Shown here: piece after piece, positions 21,066 to 30,824 of the stretch
Numbering within the stretch: the stretch's first letter is position 1
Layout of the letters: each line of letters begins with the position of its first letter
NCBI GenBank assembly: GCA_033471095.1
Contig: CP136752.1
Span: 829,348 to 863,949 of the forward strand
Length of the DNA: 34,602 nt
Direction of reading: 5' to 3'
Source of the DNA: Nitrosopumilaceae archaeon AB1(1)
GTDB lineage: Archaea > Thermoproteota > Nitrososphaeria > Nitrososphaerales > Nitrosopumilaceae
The notes under the pieces: model-generated
The model's input: only the letters and a program-made list of their open reading frames with translations
Told to the model about the DNA's origin: nothing
Databases searched by the model: none
Translations under genes and position numbers: made by a program

Positions 21066-21116
21066 CTGATAAAGATGGAAATGGACGGCTCCGTTGGATA
21101 ATACTTGGACGTTTTA

Positions 21117-21353
21117 ATGTCACAACAAACACTCTCAAAACTTGATCTAAATCACATCGATGCAATATCTTCAAATAGACAAGAACCTGATTGGCTCAGA
21201 CAGTATAGATTTAAATCTCTTGCTATATATCATGATTTACCCCTTGAGGTCTCTCCACTATATAACAAATACACTGATGCTAAACGATTAAACTCAGATA
21301 AGGTATATCTTGGAATAAATACTGATTCTACAATTCCGCCATTTTTGGATTGA
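21117..21353 (+). CDS. sufD: SufD, N-terminal piece, ended by an in-frame TGA
   Basis: Seventy-eight residues from ATG 21117 (an upstream in-frame TTG at 21105 would add four) match the start of SufD-like proteins: SNRQEPDWLRQYRFKSLAIY and LPLEVSPLYNKYTDAKRL. The frame stops at TGA 21351-21353 after PPFLD and resumes in the same frame after one CGA codon at ATG 21357. The two pieces together give the length of an intact SufD (about 468 residues). The simplest reading is a nonsense codon in a once continuous gene, with either loss of function, readthrough, or stop-restart producing two chains. A single TGA-to-CGA change would restore one protein. Confidence 0.75.
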   Translation: MSQQTLSKLDLNHIDAISSNRQEPDWLRQYRFKSLAIYHDLPLEVSPLYNKYTDAKRLNSDKVYLGINTDSTIPPFLD

Positions 21354-21356
21354 CGA

Positions 21357-22517
21357 ATGAAAGAATTGGAAAATTCAAATCATATTGTTCAAATTGGAAC
21401 TAATATTGTACGATCAAAACTTGATTCATCACTGAAAGATAAAGGTGTAATCATATCTTCTCTTAATGATGTCATGTCCACTAAATCTAATCTACTACAA
21501 ACCATATTAAATTCTGAGAATTCGTCTGAGGATAAATTTACAGCACTCAATAATGCTGCATTTAACACTGGAATCTTTATTCACATACCAAAAAATGTTC
21601 AAATAGATGAATCTATTTTTATTCTAAGTTGTATGTCTTCAGATGAATTGTCTTCTATATCTAAGAATGTAATTAATGTAGATAATTCTTCTAGTGCAAG
21701 GGTTGTTCAGGAGTTATACTCTCCTACAAATACTGCTCAACAGTCTTATCTTGAAATGCTACACGTGAATGTGGGTGCTGCTGCCAAACTTGATTCTACT
21801 ACCCTACAAATGATGGATAAAAGTTCAGTAAATTTTTCTACTCGTCATACTAGAATACATCAAGACGGTCTTGTAAATTGGTATTTGGGGTTATTCGGAT
21901 CAATTTTATCAAGATATAGAACAAATTATCACCTTATTGAACCAGGGGCAAATGCGAATGATTCAGAGGTAGTATTTGGAGATGGCAAACAGTGTTTTGA
22001 TATGCAAACCGTTATGAATCATTCTAGTCCTCATACAGATGGAAAAGTGATTGAAAAATCCATTTTACGTAATAAATCTAGATCTCTCTTTAAAGGTATG
22101 ATTCGAATAAATGAAAATGCGACAAAATCAAATTCGTATCTGTCTGGTAGAAGTATTCTACTTGACAGTGAAGCGAAATCTGATTCCATTCCGGGTCTTG
22201 AAATACTTACTAATGATGTCAAAGCCACACACGCCGCATCCGTAGCTCAGATTGATGAAGAACAGATATTCTATCTTGCAACTAGGTGTCTTGATAAAGC
22301 AACTGCAGAGAAGACCATTGTTGAAGGATTTTTAGAACCACTGTCTAGAAAAATGTCTTATCAGGTAAGGGCATGGATTGCATATTTGATTGACTCTAAA
22401 TGGGAGGGCAAAGAATTGTTGATAAATGATGATAAGGAACTTCGTAAATTCATTGAAATTGAAGAGACTAGATATGATGAAGATACAGAGATTGATCAAC
22501 ACTACAAGTATCGATAG
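21357..22517 (+). CDS. sufD: Fe-S cluster assembly protein SufD, main (C-terminal) part
   Basis: The 386-residue frame holds almost all of the SufD beta-helix and C-terminal domain: FTALNNAAFNTGIFIHIPKN, VVQELYSPTNTAQQSYLEM, KGMIRINENATKSNSYL, LSGRSILLDSEAKSDSIPGLEI, and the C-terminal ATHAASVAQIDEEQIFYLATR and IVEGFLEPLSRKM. It starts at ATG 21357, one codon after the TGA that ends the N-terminal piece, in the same frame. No strong ribosome binding site is seen, so restart after termination at the adjacent TGA is the likely way to make it. SufD partners SufB and SufC. The downstream frame is fully intact, which suggests it is still under selection. Confidence 0.9.
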   Translation: MKELENSNHIVQIGTNIVRSKLDSSLKDKGVIISSLNDVMSTKSNLLQTILNSENSSEDKFTALNNAAFNTGIFIHIPKNVQIDESIFILSCMSSDELSSISKNVINVDNSSSARVVQELYSPTNTAQQSYLEMLHVNVGAAAKLDSTTLQMMDKSSVNFSTRHTRIHQDGLVNWYLGLFGSILSRYRTNYHLIEPGANANDSEVVFGDGKQCFDMQTVMNHSSPHTDGKVIEKSILRNKSRSLFKGMIRINENATKSNSYLSGRSILLDSEAKSDSIPGLEILTNDVKATHAASVAQIDEEQIFYLATRCLDKATAEKTIVEGFLEPLSRKMSYQVRAWIAYLIDSKWEGKELLINDDKELRKFIEIEETRYDEDTEIDQHYKYR

Positions 22518-24197: not shown

Positions 24198-24539
24198 ATG
24201 TCTGCAAACTATCCTGATGTTCTTTTATCAATTAGAAAAATAATTTATGAAAAATTCAATGATGTTGATTCCAAGTTCACAAATGATGATATTTTATCCT
24301 CACTAAAAGAATTAAACCTAATATCTTCCTCTACTACAGCAGATGATATGGAAAAGCATTTTAAAATTCTTGCAAACACAAAGTTATTTCGAATAATAGC
24401 CCAAAATTTCACTACTATGTGGTTTAAATTATTCACACCGTTGATTGAATCTAGTTGTGATTCATGTAATTCTATAATTCATGTACATTCAACAGAAAAA
24501 TTACCATGTCCCAACACATCGTGTAAATCTAATCTTTAG
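24198..24539 (+). CDS. Hypothetical protein with C-terminal zinc-ribbon-like cysteines, 113 aa
   Basis: The first 80 residues look like a helical, possibly winged-helix module (IRKIIYEKFNDV, DDILSSLKELNLIS, DMEKHFKILANTKLFRII). The last 30 residues carry SSCDSCNSII and LPCPNTSC, a CxxC plus CxxxxC set that could bind zinc or a cluster. It follows sufU by one base and so belongs to the suf transcript, but I know no family for it. Its 3' end overlaps pgk tail-to-tail by 11 bases. A role in regulating or assisting Fe-S assembly is only suggested by position. Confidence 0.75.
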   Translation: MSANYPDVLLSIRKIIYEKFNDVDSKFTNDDILSSLKELNLISSSTTADDMEKHFKILANTKLFRIIAQNFTTMWFKLFTPLIESSCDSCNSIIHVHSTEKLPCPNTSCKSNL

Positions 24540-25737
24540 AATATTTTTTCGCAGACTCTTCTAATGATTTTATCATCGGTAGCGTTTCTCCTGTCAAATA
24601 TAATACCAATGCCCCACCTGCTGTGCTAACATGATTTATTCTATCTGTCAACTTGTATTTTTTGAGTGCAGATGACAAATGTCCTCCACTTACAATAGTT
24701 GTGGCCATTGAATTTGCCACCGCTTGTAATAATTCCCTAGTTCCAAATTCAAATTTCTCTTTTTCAAATAAACCTGCTGGACCACTAATGAATACAGTTG
24801 CGGCCCCTACTATGATTCGTGAATAATGATTAATAGTTTTTGGACCAATATCTAATATTTTATCATTTGAGCCTAAATCTCTCACATCGATATCTATTCT
24901 TTTACCTTCACGTTCAATTGCTACATCTACTGGTGTTGAGAAAACATCTGGGTATTCTCCTATTAATTTATGTGCCATGAATACTACTTCTTCTTCACGC
25001 GCTATTCCCAATGACGATTTTATTCTTCCCTGTGCACGCATAAACACATTTCCAATTATTCCTGTAAGTAAAATATGGTCTGCTCTTTTATTTTTAATTA
25101 ATTGTTTTAAAGCCTCTAATCTATCAACAACTTTTGATCCTCCTAACACAATAACGTGAGGATTTTTTGTTATTGTCATTATTTCATTCAATTGTTTAGT
25201 TTCACGCTCCACAATTTTTCCTGCACATGCGGGTAAATTTTGTGAAAACCCAATTATTGATGGGTGGGCTCTGTGCGCAGTGGAAAATGAATCCAACACA
25301 CACAAATCAAATAAATTCACTAGTCTTTGCACTAGTATTGTCTTTGTTGCATCTTCGGGAGAAAATTCATAATTTTCTTCTGCACATAATCGAAGATTAT
25401 CGAGTAAAAGAATGTCATTATTCTGAAGATTTTTAATTGCCTCTCTTGCAGTTGGAGACATTACATCTTCCACATACTTGATCTTTCTGTTTAGAAATTT
25501 CTCTAATAGTTTTGCGTGCTTGTCCATTCCGGTATAGTCTTTATTCCCGACCCTGCCCTGATGTGATGCGACTACTATTTTTGCCCCTTTGAGAGCTAGA
25601 ATGCTCTCTGTTGCCTCCTCAATTCTTCTAGAACCAGTTATTTCCATGGTCTCTGAGTCAATTGGGCAGTTCATATCTACCCTCAAAAATACTGTTTTCC
25701 CCTCTATATCAAAATCTTTTATGGTCAGTATTTTCAA
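24529..25737 (-). CDS. pgk: Phosphoglycerate kinase, archaeal type
   Basis: PGK transfers phosphate between 1,3-bisphosphoglycerate and ADP; here it probably works in gluconeogenesis. The 402 residues show FLRVDMNCPIDSETMEI, the VVASHQGRVGNKDY loop, DNLRLCAEEN, DSFSTAHRAHPSIIGF, VIVLGGSKVVDRL, and the C-terminal nucleotide-binding GPAGLFEKEKFEFGTREL and SGGHLSSAL, all as in archaeal PGKs. The TTG at 25737 is chosen because a TATA-like box is centred about 26.5 bases upstream and KILTIKDFDIEGK is a normal N terminus. Monocistronic. Confidence 0.95.
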   Translation of the reverse strand: MKILTIKDFDIEGKTVFLRVDMNCPIDSETMEITGSRRIEEATESILALKGAKIVVASHQGRVGNKDYTGMDKHAKLLEKFLNRKIKYVEDVMSPTAREAIKNLQNNDILLLDNLRLCAEENYEFSPEDATKTILVQRLVNLFDLCVLDSFSTAHRAHPSIIGFSQNLPACAGKIVERETKQLNEIMTITKNPHVIVLGGSKVVDRLEALKQLIKNKRADHILLTGIIGNVFMRAQGRIKSSLGIAREEEVVFMAHKLIGEYPDVFSTPVDVAIEREGKRIDIDVRDLGSNDKILDIGPKTINHYSRIIVGAATVFISGPAGLFEKEKFEFGTRELLQAVANSMATTIVSGGHLSSALKKYKLTDRINHVSTAGGALVLYLTGETLPMIKSLEESAKKYSKD

Positions 25738-25830: not shown

Positions 25831-26472
25831 ATGCAAAATTGGATTTTTGATATACGTTCTAGACTATTCGTTCTTCTCAGTTTTGGGTTTTTGATTCTTA
25901 CAACTTTTGTGTATTTTGGATTTTTTGATCAATTTGATCAAGCTTCAATAACTTATTTTCAAAATTTTTTTGGTAATGACATCCTAGACGGATTCATGTT
26001 GCTTGTAACTGAAATTGGTACGATATACTACATGTTGGGATTCAGTATAGTTCTCTTAATAATACGACGAACTAGACGAATTGGAGCTGTGCTTTTAATA
26101 TTAATGGTTTCAACTACAATTGTAACTGGTTACATAAAATGCGGTGTCGATAGAGATCGTCCTAGTGAAGAATTCGCTGAAAATCCATTTCAAATGACTC
26201 CTTCACGTGATACTTTTTCATTATTTTGTGGTAGTGGTGCAGACGCATCCTTCCCATCTGGTCACGCCGCACGTGCTATGGCTTTGGCAGTTGTTTTAGG
26301 ATACATCGCATCAAAATATTTCCCACGTGGTTCATACTTGATTCTAATTTATCCAATTTTAATGTCAATCAGTAGAGTCTACATCTCGCAACATTATCCT
26401 ACTGATGTCATTGGCGGCATGATTATAGGTATGCTGCTTGCAGGGGTAATCTCTTACAAAGCCAAACTCTAG
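25831..26472 (+). CDS. PAP2-family membrane phosphatase
   Basis: The 213-residue protein has five to six hydrophobic segments and all three PAP2 motifs: KCGVDRDRP (motif 1), FPSGHAARA (motif 2) and SRVYISQHYPTDVIGG (motif 3). The arginines and histidines of the active site are therefore present. Such enzymes dephosphorylate lipid phosphates such as phosphatidate or polyprenyl diphosphate at the membrane; the archaeal substrate could be an isoprenoid lipid. ATG 25831 is the start; CTTTATACTG at 25784-25793 may be the TATA box, giving a short leader. It overlaps the next convergent gene by 4 bases. Confidence 0.92.
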   Translation: MQNWIFDIRSRLFVLLSFGFLILTTFVYFGFFDQFDQASITYFQNFFGNDILDGFMLLVTEIGTIYYMLGFSIVLLIIRRTRRIGAVLLILMVSTTIVTGYIKCGVDRDRPSEEFAENPFQMTPSRDTFSLFCGSGADASFPSGHAARAMALAVVLGYIASKYFPRGSYLILIYPILMSISRVYISQHYPTDVIGGMIIGMLLAGVISYKAKL

Positions 26473-26777
26473 AGACCAAATTTTTCTGCTAATGTTGATG
26501 ATGCAAAAACAATTGCATAATGATTTTCATCTTCATGATATGTCCAGTAACGCACATCACGATTCTTTCCTGATTTGCGTAATCCGTAATTCACACTAGT
26601 AGTTACTGCATATCCAATTCTTTTCACTATTTTTCTCTCCTTTGGCATCAATATTTTATATGCTACATCAAATCCTTTTTCTACCATCTCATTGGCAATT
26701 TTTTCTGCCTCCAATTCGTCTTTTATGTCAAATGTTTTATCTACAGGAATTTTTGAAGGATGTGTATCATTATTCAT
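26469..26777 (-). CDS. Hypothetical protein, 102 aa
   Basis: A small soluble charged protein. A central KILMPKERKIVKRIGYAVTT segment is followed by NYGLRKSGKNRDVRYWTYHE and HYAIVFASSTLAEKFGL, suggesting a beta-rich core after an N-terminal helix (DELEAEKIANEMVEKG). It is not recognised. TGATATTAAC at 26800-26809 (read on the minus strand as GTTAATATCA) lies about 27 bases before ATG 26777 and supports that start. It is convergent with the PAP2 gene (4-base overlap). Confidence 0.75.
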   Translation of the reverse strand: MNNDTHPSKIPVDKTFDIKDELEAEKIANEMVEKGFDVAYKILMPKERKIVKRIGYAVTTSVNYGLRKSGKNRDVRYWTYHEDENHYAIVFASSTLAEKFGL

Positions 26778-26932: not shown

Positions 26933-28975
26933 ATGGTTACAATTTCATCACGTTTAATTACTGAATTAAAACAGCGTCGTGTAAAACTTAGTAATATTAA
27001 ACGAGATTTCTCTAGGCAGATGAATTCTGCTCAAAATCTACATGACAAATCAATTTCATCAATGATATCTTTACAAAAAAAATTAGATGCGACAGAGATG
27101 TCACTACATGGTTTAACTCAAATTTTAAATCAAGATAAAGCAAAAAAGAAAAGTATCGAAGATCTAATAAAATTAGCAAATTCTCGTCTTAATATTGAAA
27201 AGAAAATTATGCGTGATATTGAACAAAACGCAAAACAATCAAGTAATCTCAATGAAATGCAAGTCGTGGCAAAACGTCTAATCTCATCATCTGATAAGAT
27301 ATCTACTCTTGTATCTGAAATTAAATCATATGATCGGAGATTGAGCAAATTATCTCCTATAATCACACAACATCAACAATCCATTCTCAAATTAACTGCT
27401 AGCGTACATCAGCATTTAAAACAACAACCCATTATACAGCGTTTAATATCTTCCAGTTCTAAGGATTTCGAACGACGCAAACAACAATTCTTGAACCTTA
27501 CTAAACAAGATGACTCAATGAAAGATAAATTGGAATTAATAGCACAGAGAATTTTATTCAACAAGGAACATCATATTAAATCACCAAATTCTACTACAAA
27601 GAAAACGAAATCTAAAAAATCCACCAAGACTAAAACTAAACGTAAATCAAAACGAAGAACTAGTGGTAAAAAAACCAAAGCAGCACCAAAACGTAAACGT
27701 CCATCACGTAAATCTTCTAGTAAAACCAAAGCAGCACCAAAACGTAAACGTCCATCACGTAAATCTTCTAGTAAAACCAAAGCAGCACCAAAACGTAAAC
27801 GTCCATCACGTAAATCTTCTAGTAAAACCAAAGCAGCACCAAAACGTAAACGTCCATCACGTAAATCTTCTAGTAAAACCAAAGCAGCACCAAAACGTAA
27901 ACGTCCATCACGTAAATCTTCTAGTAAAACCAAAGCAGCACCAAAACGTAAACGTCCATCACGTAAATCTTCTAGTAAAACCAAAGCAGCACCAAAACGT
28001 AAACGTCCATCACGTAAATCTTCTAGTAAAACCAAAGCAGCACCAAAACGTAAACGTCCATCACGTAAATCTTCTAGTAAAACCAAAGCAGCACCAAAAC
28101 GTAAACGTCCATCACGTAAATCTTCTAGTAAAACCAAAGCAGCACCAAAACGTAAACGTCCATCACGTAAATCTTCTAGTAAAACCAAAGCAGCACCAAA
28201 ACGTAAACGTCCATCACGTAGAAAAGGAACTGGTAAACCAAGACGTTCTTCTGGCGGTAAAAAAACCAAAGCAGCACCAAAACGTAAACGTCCATCACGT
28301 AGAAAAGGAACTGGTAAACCAAGACGTTCTTCTGGCGGTAAAAAAACCAAAGCAGCACCAAAACGTAAACGTCCATCACGTAGAAAAGGAACTGGTAAAC
28401 CAAGACGTTCTTCTGGCGGTAAAAAAACCAAAGCAGCACCAAAACGTAAACGTCCATCACGTAGAAAAGGAACTGGTAAACCAAGACGTTCTTCTGGCGG
28501 TAAAAAAACCAAAGCAGCACCAAAACGTAAACGTCCATCACGTAGAAAAGGAACTGGTAAACCAAGACGTTCTTCTGGCGGTAAAAAAACCAAAGCAGCA
28601 CCAAAACGTAAACGTCCATCACGTAAATCTTCTAGTAAAACCAAAGCAGCACCAAAACGTAAACGTCCATCACGTAGAAAAGGAACTGGTAAACCAAGAC
28701 GTTCTTCTGGCGGTAAAAAAACCAAAGCAGCACCAAAACGTAAACGTCCATCACGTAAATCTTCTAGTAAAACCAAAGCAGCACCAAAACGTAAACGTCC
28801 ATCACGTAGAAAAGGAACTGGTAAACCAAGACGTTCTTCTGGCGGTAAAAAAACCAAAGCAGCACCAAAACGTAAACGTCCATCACGTAAATCTTCTAGT
28901 AAAACCAAAGCAGCACCAAAACGTAAACGTCCATCACGTAAATCTGGTAGAAGAAAATCTAAACGATCTCGATAG
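26933..28975 (+). CDS. Coiled-coil protein with a long histone-H1-like Lys/Arg/Pro/Ala repeat tail, 680 aa
   Basis: Residues 1-215 form a predicted long coiled coil (LKQRRVKLSNIKRDF, MISLQKKLDATEMSLHGLTQ, ISTLVSEIKSYDRRLSKL). A Lys/Arg/Thr/Ser linker (KKTKSKKSTKTKTKRKSKRR) leads into about 425 residues built from 21 copies of the core KTKAAPKRKRPSR, followed by KSSS (17-residue unit) or by a Gly/Arg/Ser-rich 14-residue extension (27-residue unit). The tail carries roughly 200 positive charges and no acidic residue, like histone H1 tails and bacterial AlgP or H1-like proteins, so nucleic-acid binding or compaction is the best guess. No membrane segment is seen. ATG 26933 begins the coil; TATA-like stretches lie at 26892-26902 and 26914-26923. 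Monocistronic. The repeats keep two other frames open, but these are artefacts. Confidence 0.88.
   Translation: MVTISSRLITELKQRRVKLSNIKRDFSRQMNSAQNLHDKSISSMISLQKKLDATEMSLHGLTQILNQDKAKKKSIEDLIKLANSRLNIEKKIMRDIEQNAKQSSNLNEMQVVAKRLISSSDKISTLVSEIKSYDRRLSKLSPIITQHQQSILKLTASVHQHLKQQPIIQRLISSSSKDFERRKQQFLNLTKQDDSMKDKLELIAQRILFNKEHHIKSPNSTTKKTKSKKSTKTKTKRKSKRRTSGKKTKAAPKRKRPSRKSSSKTKAAPKRKRPSRKSSSKTKAAPKRKRPSRKSSSKTKAAPKRKRPSRKSSSKTKAAPKRKRPSRKSSSKTKAAPKRKRPSRKSSSKTKAAPKRKRPSRKSSSKTKAAPKRKRPSRKSSSKTKAAPKRKRPSRKSSSKTKAAPKRKRPSRKSSSKTKAAPKRKRPSRRKGTGKPRRSSGGKKTKAAPKRKRPSRRKGTGKPRRSSGGKKTKAAPKRKRPSRRKGTGKPRRSSGGKKTKAAPKRKRPSRRKGTGKPRRSSGGKKTKAAPKRKRPSRRKGTGKPRRSSGGKKTKAAPKRKRPSRKSSSKTKAAPKRKRPSRRKGTGKPRRSSGGKKTKAAPKRKRPSRKSSSKTKAAPKRKRPSRRKGTGKPRRSSGGKKTKAAPKRKRPSRKSSSKTKAAPKRKRPSRKSGRRKSKRSR
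27671..28939 (+). repeat. Tandem coding repeat array: 51-base and 81-base units sharing a 39-base core
   Basis: Twenty-one copies of one 39-base core start at 27671. Ten 51-base units run to 28180, five 81-base units to 28585, then 51, 81, 51, 81, 51 and a final partial unit at 28901. As far as I can read, copies within each class are identical at every base, including third codon positions. This implies very recent expansion or continuing homogenisation by recombination or slippage. Both unit lengths are multiples of three, so copy-number change keeps the frame. Confidence 0.95.
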
Positions 28976-30152: not shown

Positions 30153-30824
30153 TTGGGTCTACGTGATCTTAACCTCAAGAATGAATATAGATCAGACAAG
30201 AATAATCTTGTCGATGAGTTTTTTATTCCTTGTTTGGATACTTGCACTAAATTTGATAGAGCTGTAGAATTTATTCAAGTCACCCGCTTTGCTTCATATT
30301 ATTTTAATAATAAAAATGTAAAAAATCGTCCAACTATTCGTCTTGTAACCGGACACCGTATGAGTACAAAAAATCTTAACGCTCTGGTAAAAATCATATC
30401 TCAAGATCGTTCTAAATCCTTACATGCTAAAATTCCTTTTCCATTGCATTCTAAACTTAGTCAAAATGAAAAGCCAGTACAAGATATGCTCAAAACTGGC
30501 AAACTACGTATAAAAATCGCTATACCTGACTCTGATGAGGTGTATGAAACATTTGGAGAAAAAATTGGAATTTTTCGTGATGATACTGATGTGGTGGCCT
30601 TTACAGGAACATCTAATCGTATATTTGACCCATCACACCACGATTTTGAATCCCTTGATGTGTTTACATCTTGGGATGATAAAACTAGGGTTCAAACTAA
30701 AATTGATAATTTTGAAAATTTATGGGCCAATCAAACACGATACATTACTGTATTTGATATAGTAGATGCCATCGAACAAAATAAACTTCAATATTCTCAA
30801 GAATGGCTTACTAATAATTATTAA
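30153..30824 (+). CDS. Phospholipase-D-like domain protein, 223 aa
   Basis: The N terminus (NEYRSDKNNLVDEFFIPCLD, then FDRAVEFIQVTRFASYYF) and the C-terminal half (EKIGIFRDDTDVVAFTGTSN, DFESLDVFTSW, FENLWANQT) match the PLD-like nuclease module often attached to DEAD/Snf2-type helicases or restriction systems. In those proteins the C-terminal block normally begins with HxK; here it reads FGEKIGIF, so the histidine is replaced by glycine. The protein stands alone, with no helicase nearby. TTG 30153 is supported by a TATA-like box about 26 bases upstream. A DNA-binding or DNA-processing role is likely, but nuclease activity is doubtful. Confidence 0.75.
   Translation: MGLRDLNLKNEYRSDKNNLVDEFFIPCLDTCTKFDRAVEFIQVTRFASYYFNNKNVKNRPTIRLVTGHRMSTKNLNALVKIISQDRSKSLHAKIPFPLHSKLSQNEKPVQDMLKTGKLRIKIAIPDSDEVYETFGEKIGIFRDDTDVVAFTGTSNRIFDPSHHDFESLDVFTSWDDKTRVQTKIDNFENLWANQTRYITVFDIVDAIEQNKLQYSQEWLTNNY

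Follow-up and report, generated by a model that had tools for sequence, protein, structure and literature searches.

A conserved coiled-coil protein with a histone H1-like repeat tail as a candidate nucleoid-associated protein of Nitrosopumilaceae

Closest described systems and the tail-bearing gene

Helical or coiled-coil proteins that end in a basic tail resembling that of linker histone H1 have been described in bacteria. In HBHA of Mycobacterium tuberculosis, which combines a helical coiled-coil N-terminal part with Lys-Pro-Ala-rich C-terminal repeats and has no enzyme domain, the C-terminal domain behind the coiled coil is both required for DNA binding and enough on its own; HBHA introduces bends and loops into DNA and is located in the nucleoid (PMC10665949). 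PhaF of Pseudomonas putida joins a helical, coiled-coil oligomerising N-terminal part to a disordered H1/AlgP-like DNA-binding tail (PMC3574117), and AlgP of Pseudomonas aeruginosa joins a predicted helical N-terminal domain to a tandem-repeat H1-like tail (154 aa, KPAA repeats) (PMC9239181); both proteins tie granules to DNA (PMC3574117, PMC9239181). Chlamydial Hc2 (HctB) is also an H1-like basic protein, and its size is set by the number of intragenic repeats (PMC2848022).

The window analyzed here is a 34,602-bp stretch of the genome of Nitrosopumilaceae archaeon AB1(1). The Nitrosopumilaceae are ammonia-oxidising archaea that live in sea and soil, and they are among the most numerous marine archaea. 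We focused on an ORF of the window that joins a coiled-coil head to a long basic repeat tail, and distinguished the following parts:

26933-28975, plus strand: tail-bearing ORF, ATG start, 680 aa
26933..27577, plus strand: head, residues 1-215, a predicted antiparallel coiled-coil hairpin (helix 2-102, turn 103-105, helix 106-213)
27578..27670, plus strand: irregular basic linker of 31 residues (KSPNSTTKKTKSKKSTKTKTKRKSKRRTSGK)
27671..28180, plus strand: array part 1, ten identical 51-bp units (KTKAAPKRKRPSRKSSS)
28181..28585, plus strand: array part 2, five identical 81-bp units (KTKAAPKRKRPSRRKGTGKPRRSSGGK)
28586..28939, plus strand: array part 3, 51- and 81-bp units alternating (A-B-A-B-A-core) with a 132-bp higher-order period
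28940..28975, plus strand: C-terminal basic end KSGRRKSKRSR and TAG stop

Of the 465 tail residues (216-680), 133 are Lys and 91 are Arg (48% K+R), and Asp and Glu are absent; by residue count, the tail carries 224 positive charges. The earlier note, made from the letters of this DNA, was therefore correct in describing an H1- or AlgP-like tail without acidic residues on a coiled-coil head, and its sizes of about 425 residues and roughly 200 charges were slightly low. The likeness to the long, acid-free, disordered Lys/Ala/Pro-rich tail of H1 is one of composition, not homology. The array is built of units A (51 bp, n = 13) and B (81 bp, n = 7) in the order A10-B5-A-B-A-B-A-core, and its 39-bp core KTKAAPKRKRPSR is present in 21 copies that are identical at the DNA level. 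Identity is 100% over each array (TRF), far beyond chance. Given that the units are identical in DNA, the repeat expansion is recent, and the exact copy number depends on the assembly.

Overlapping ORFs of 477 (antisense), 443, and 148 aa run through the array in other frames; these arise simply because the repeat lengths are multiples of three, and we rejected them as genes. The possibility that the tail-bearing ORF is itself a chance or translation artefact was rejected on the basis of its conserved head, synteny and composition. The array was found nowhere else in its own genome, except for a 20-nt piece shared with a second, stand-alone basic ORF (G000:C1:1302697-1303167, minus strand; locus L100, 3198-3668; 131-156 aa, MAKAKRTMSKSKTTRRTKRKATTTKRKAAPKRKAAS...). 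The divergent neighbour of this second ORF is presumably a topoisomerase IB-like gene, and the ORF was rejected as a possible partner: it is not kept beside the topoisomerase gene in 17 relatives.

The head family, its neighbourhood and predicted structure

We compared the head alone with sequence families and genomes, as the earlier note had proposed. A profile built from 21 sequences, which matches the window head with E 2e-61, had matches in 149 of 300 genomes of the class, comprising 148 Nitrosopumilaceae and one weak match outside the family (E 2e-4), while at least 20 Nitrosopumilaceae members among these 300 had no match. A single-sequence search with the window head matched 47 of 101 genomes, and the 46 other than its own all belong to Nitrosopumilaceae and show 20-28% identity. 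The gene is single-copy throughout, with a sole marginal second match in G021 (E 0.0099). When contigs of named genomes were scanned with the head of a relative, G045, 37 loci were obtained, nearly all labelled Nitrosopumilus, Nitrosopumilaceae, Nitrososphaerota or Thaumarchaeota; the same scan with the divergent window head gave no matches. A viral origin was rejected, as no relative was found among viral contigs.

No Pfam or NCBIfam family matched the head above cut-off, and a known family was rejected after searches of Pfam, NCBIfam and PDB sequences yielded only faint, mutually inconsistent coiled-coil matches. The head thus matched no known family, those unrelated to nucleic acids included. 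No paper on the family was found in a literature search that covered a minority of subscription papers, and the family is apparently both conserved and undescribed. The note knew of no such architecture in archaea; the gene proved to be conserved across Nitrosopumilaceae, and its general layout is known from the bacterial HBHA, PhaF and AlgP.

The head gene is a core gene of Nitrosopumilaceae, yet dispensable, since it is missing from some members: the 0.8-Mb genomes of genus g5, in which PAP2 is directly followed by the next gene, three g15 genomes, G051, which keeps the 102-aa ORF described below, and G001. Defects were observed in two copies, namely a frame-shifted basic tail in L017 (G002:C60) and a TAG within the head at G143:C1:1351875-1352480; these reflect either genuine variation or faults of assembly.

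Since coiled-coil sequences can resemble one another by chance, we used genomic position to check orthology. The neighbours used were:

24529-25737, minus strand: conserved neighbour that we take, from its sequence, to be PGK
25831-26472, plus strand: PAP2 phosphatase-like gene (Pfam) in conserved position
26469-26777, minus strand: 102-aa ORF without Pfam match, a divergent conserved neighbour (ORF list, synteny)

The order sufB-sufB/D-sufS-sufU-small ORF-PGK(-)-PAP2-102-aa ORF(-)-head gene was found, with small local changes, in 11 of the 12 regions compared, these 11 being complete or large, and is also that of the window. In the twelfth (G022), the head gene is flanked by that 102-aa ORF on one side and by the shared downstream genes on the other. 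This synteny with PGK and PAP2 establishes the head genes as orthologues. A functional link between the head gene and the 102-aa ORF was rejected: almost every member of the Nitrosopumilaceae has the latter, as do sister families f2, f3, and f8, and as it also occurs in genomes and sister families that lack the head gene, the association is not specific. In the window, the head gene stands alone between the divergent ORF upstream and a tRNA-Glu downstream, and several relatives have a same-strand ORF within ~60 bp after it. Elsewhere in the window, the second sufB/D-like gene (21105-22517) is split by an in-frame TGA at 21351-21353 into ORFs of 82 and 386 codons, where relatives have a single intact ORF of ~466 aa; the TGA is either a sequencing error or a nonsense mutation. 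A 223-aa ORF (30153-30824, plus strand) has no Pfam match and is not among the neighbours conserved in relatives.

AlphaFold2 monomer models placed the window head in an antiparallel hairpin of helices 2-102 and 106-213 (mean pLDDT 92, pTM 0.64), and the same hairpin was predicted for the G045 head (30 sequences, pLDDT 95). Hydrophobicity across the family showed a heptad period of 3.50 for each helix, a signal that none of 2000 shuffles reached, and the 215-residue coiled-coil head proposed in the note was thus confirmed at the level of prediction. At 1.5 angstrom per residue, the modelled rod would be ~15 nm long. The top Foldseek matches, and the closest structural likeness of the head, were fragments of SMC arms (5xg2, E 3e-4 and 2e-4; 5nnv_B, TM-score 0.76 with the window model), followed by other long helical hairpins. 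We read this resemblance between models and structures as generic coiled-coil similarity; SMC and Rad50 differ in having an ATPase head and hinge, both of which are missing here, where only coiled coil and basic tail are present.

A long helical hairpin could also be the rod of a membrane or cytoskeletal scaffold of BAR-, PspA- or ESCRT-like type, with the basic tail lying on acidic membrane surfaces, and F-BAR and SH3BP5 rods were among the weak Foldseek matches. However, their E-values were no better than ~2e-3 with rmsd mostly >15, PspA and ESCRT-III were not among the top 50 matches, and neither archaeal ether lipids nor a tail of 40-65% Lys/Arg lends this explanation specific support; we regard it as improbable.

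The head also sets the protein apart from the described systems. The winged-helix globular domain of H1 (Pfam Linker_histone) was found neither in the head nor in the full protein, the head being predicted as all coiled coil, and the head had no match to the archaeal histone (PF00808) or Alba (PF01918) families. HBHA is a bacterial protein of 199 aa with an 81-aa coiled coil, a tail of ~39 aa and an N-proximal hydrophobic segment, whereas the head here is predicted to fold as a hairpin in which each helix has ~100 residues; compared through family models, the head matched no HBHA model of NCBIfam or Pfam. Chlamydial Hc2, likewise bacterial, has a 36-aa repeat and no coiled-coil head (PMC2848022). 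H1-like tails thus occur in archaea on a scaffold unlike that of H1, HBHA or PhaF.

Tail length and composition across the family

We then surveyed the tails of 46 complete, clean copies, with the boundary set by the profile and the divergent G022 copy left out. Tail length ranged from 33 to 473 residues with a median of only 79.5, and the window tail was the longest (473 by the profile boundary versus 171 for the next). The description of the tail as extreme is therefore accurate for this copy, but such great length arose by repeat expansion, specific to this lineage, from an ordinary tail of ~80 aa, and is the least conserved part of the protein. Lys and Arg accounted for 51% of tail residues (range 45-65%), and Asp and Glu for ~0.1% beyond the first 12 residues. 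The repeat units vary by lineage (KKKPARKTAA, KKRPAKKKTAA, ASKKKSKAPAKK, KAKRPAPK, KPKTRKIKA, and others), so that composition is kept across lineages and sequence is not. Approximately 10% of random nonsynonymous changes in the tail codons would give Asp or Glu, and the near absence of acids despite this points to selection on tail charge, as judged from the codons. Between neighbouring repeat units of relatives, we counted 31 synonymous and 63 nonsynonymous changes versus 71 nonsynonymous changes expected; this near-neutral result fits expectation if little more than composition matters, and says little about function. A breakdown of the observed changes by class was left aside, as it took in the boundary between head and tail.

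These data also bear on whether the length of the window tail has a selected function at all. If a minisatellite on an otherwise functional short-tailed protein had expanded neutrally, or at a slight cost, this would account for units that are perfectly identical in DNA, for the near-neutral changes between units of relatives, and for the restriction of such length to the window copy. On the other hand, all units keep the reading frame and an acid-free composition, as do the independent expansions in relatives. We give this explanation a substantial chance, somewhat short of even; it concerns tail length only and is compatible with a nucleoid protein.

The repeat affects the recorded sequences as well. 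Among the 37 named contigs (L101-L137), 18 stop ≤450 bp past the head, versus ~1.1 expected from their lengths. As contigs end at the repeat, many copies in the databases are incomplete and the actual tail often exceeds the recorded one, which makes the repeat of the head gene a point at which Nitrosopumilaceae assemblies systematically break. The divergent G022 copy (L051, G022:C1:448500-452500) encodes 566 aa, including a tail of 364 residues of partly mixed charge, in which an extra mixed-charge repeat (AEAAAREAERVRLAAEQAAREEAARKK) separates the head from a KKPAA tail and the KKPAA run is broken by IFEDGDSMWINSY.

Possible roles of the protein

With the tails of HBHA and H1 as a working precedent, a polyanion-binding role in the nucleoid is the best explanation, and the chromatin-like role favoured in the note remained, by analogy, the best reading. 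We consider it probable, on the same analogy, that the family is a nucleoid-associated DNA bridger; we infer DNA binding, oligomerisation, bridging and nucleoid location. The protein would be a single-copy, Nitrosopumilaceae-specific architectural protein, in which a disordered H1-like tail of Lys, Arg, Ala, Pro, Ser and Thr is attached to a rigid coiled-coil hairpin ~15 nm long. The tail would bind DNA, and probably other polyanions, through its charge and without sequence specificity, and self-association of the rods would gather two or more tails and thereby bridge or compact the nucleoid. Selection would then hold the composition and a minimum length of the tail rather than its sequence, and the coding repeat may behave as a minisatellite that grows and shrinks and has here reached ~465 residues. 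The longer window tail should raise valency.

For a polybasic tail, RNA, ribosomes, polyphosphate or acidic lipids would be as ready a target as DNA. The protein might therefore be an RNA- or ribosome-associated scaffold, whose tail binds rRNA or mRNA and whose rod clusters RNA or ribosomes, for example in resting cells, and composition alone cannot separate DNA from RNA as the ligand. Nevertheless, no RNA-binding domain was found in the head (Pfam, NCBIfam), and the compared regions showed no conserved link with ribosomal genes; we judge such a scaffold unlikely.

The helical N-terminal part and H1-like tail are shared with PhaF and AlgP (PMC3574117, PMC9239181), which suggests a tether between granule and nucleoid, with the head on a polyhydroxyalkanoate (as in PhaF) or polyphosphate (as in AlgP) granule and the tail on DNA or on the stored polyanion itself. 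A PhaE-like PHA synthase subunit is indeed present in many relatives. However, PhaE (PF09712) was not found in the window's own genome or in six other carriers of the head gene (G009, G010, G015, G018, G035, and G036), and was present in at least four genomes without the head gene (G001, G014, G026, and G032). The amphipathic helix of PhaF binds PHA granules, whereas the head here had no Pfam phasin match. AlgP associates with polyphosphate granules (PMC9239181), whereas a search of 61 genomes that did detect its positive controls yielded no PPK1 (PF02503), and both the repeat units and the head are unrelated in sequence to those of AlgP. A phasin role and a granule of PPK1-made polyphosphate thus appear disfavoured by gene content, and a tether of this kind is improbable. 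The polyphosphate and condensate ideas of the earlier note were likewise without positive support.

For the nucleoid explanation, the chromatin context points both ways. The window's own genome encodes one histone and three Alba-domain proteins, with genes separate from the head gene, which weighs against it, as does the absence of the head gene from some members. For N. limnia, a low-salinity relative, the published genome description names one histone and two Alba proteins as chromatin proteins (PMC3043068). In N. maritimus, the member with a quantified proteome, the histone makes up <0.06% of the proteome and stands at the level of a transcription factor (PMC7613761), which leaves room for another architectural protein. 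The survey of archaeal nucleoid-associated proteins took only proteins <290 aa, and its four criteria include this size, a single-gene operon and high abundance relative to transcription factors (PMC7613761). The protein has 680 aa in the window and 317 aa in G045; with even the latter above 290 aa, a size-limited survey would miss the head gene. More tentatively, and with less than even odds, it may be an overlooked major chromatin protein, a DNA bridger of rod and tails that takes on compaction where histone is very scarce and whose strength is tuned evolutionarily by minisatellite copy number, perhaps within populations. The conserved, single-copy, H1-tailed coiled-coil gene is a concrete and testable candidate for organising Nitrosopumilaceae DNA.
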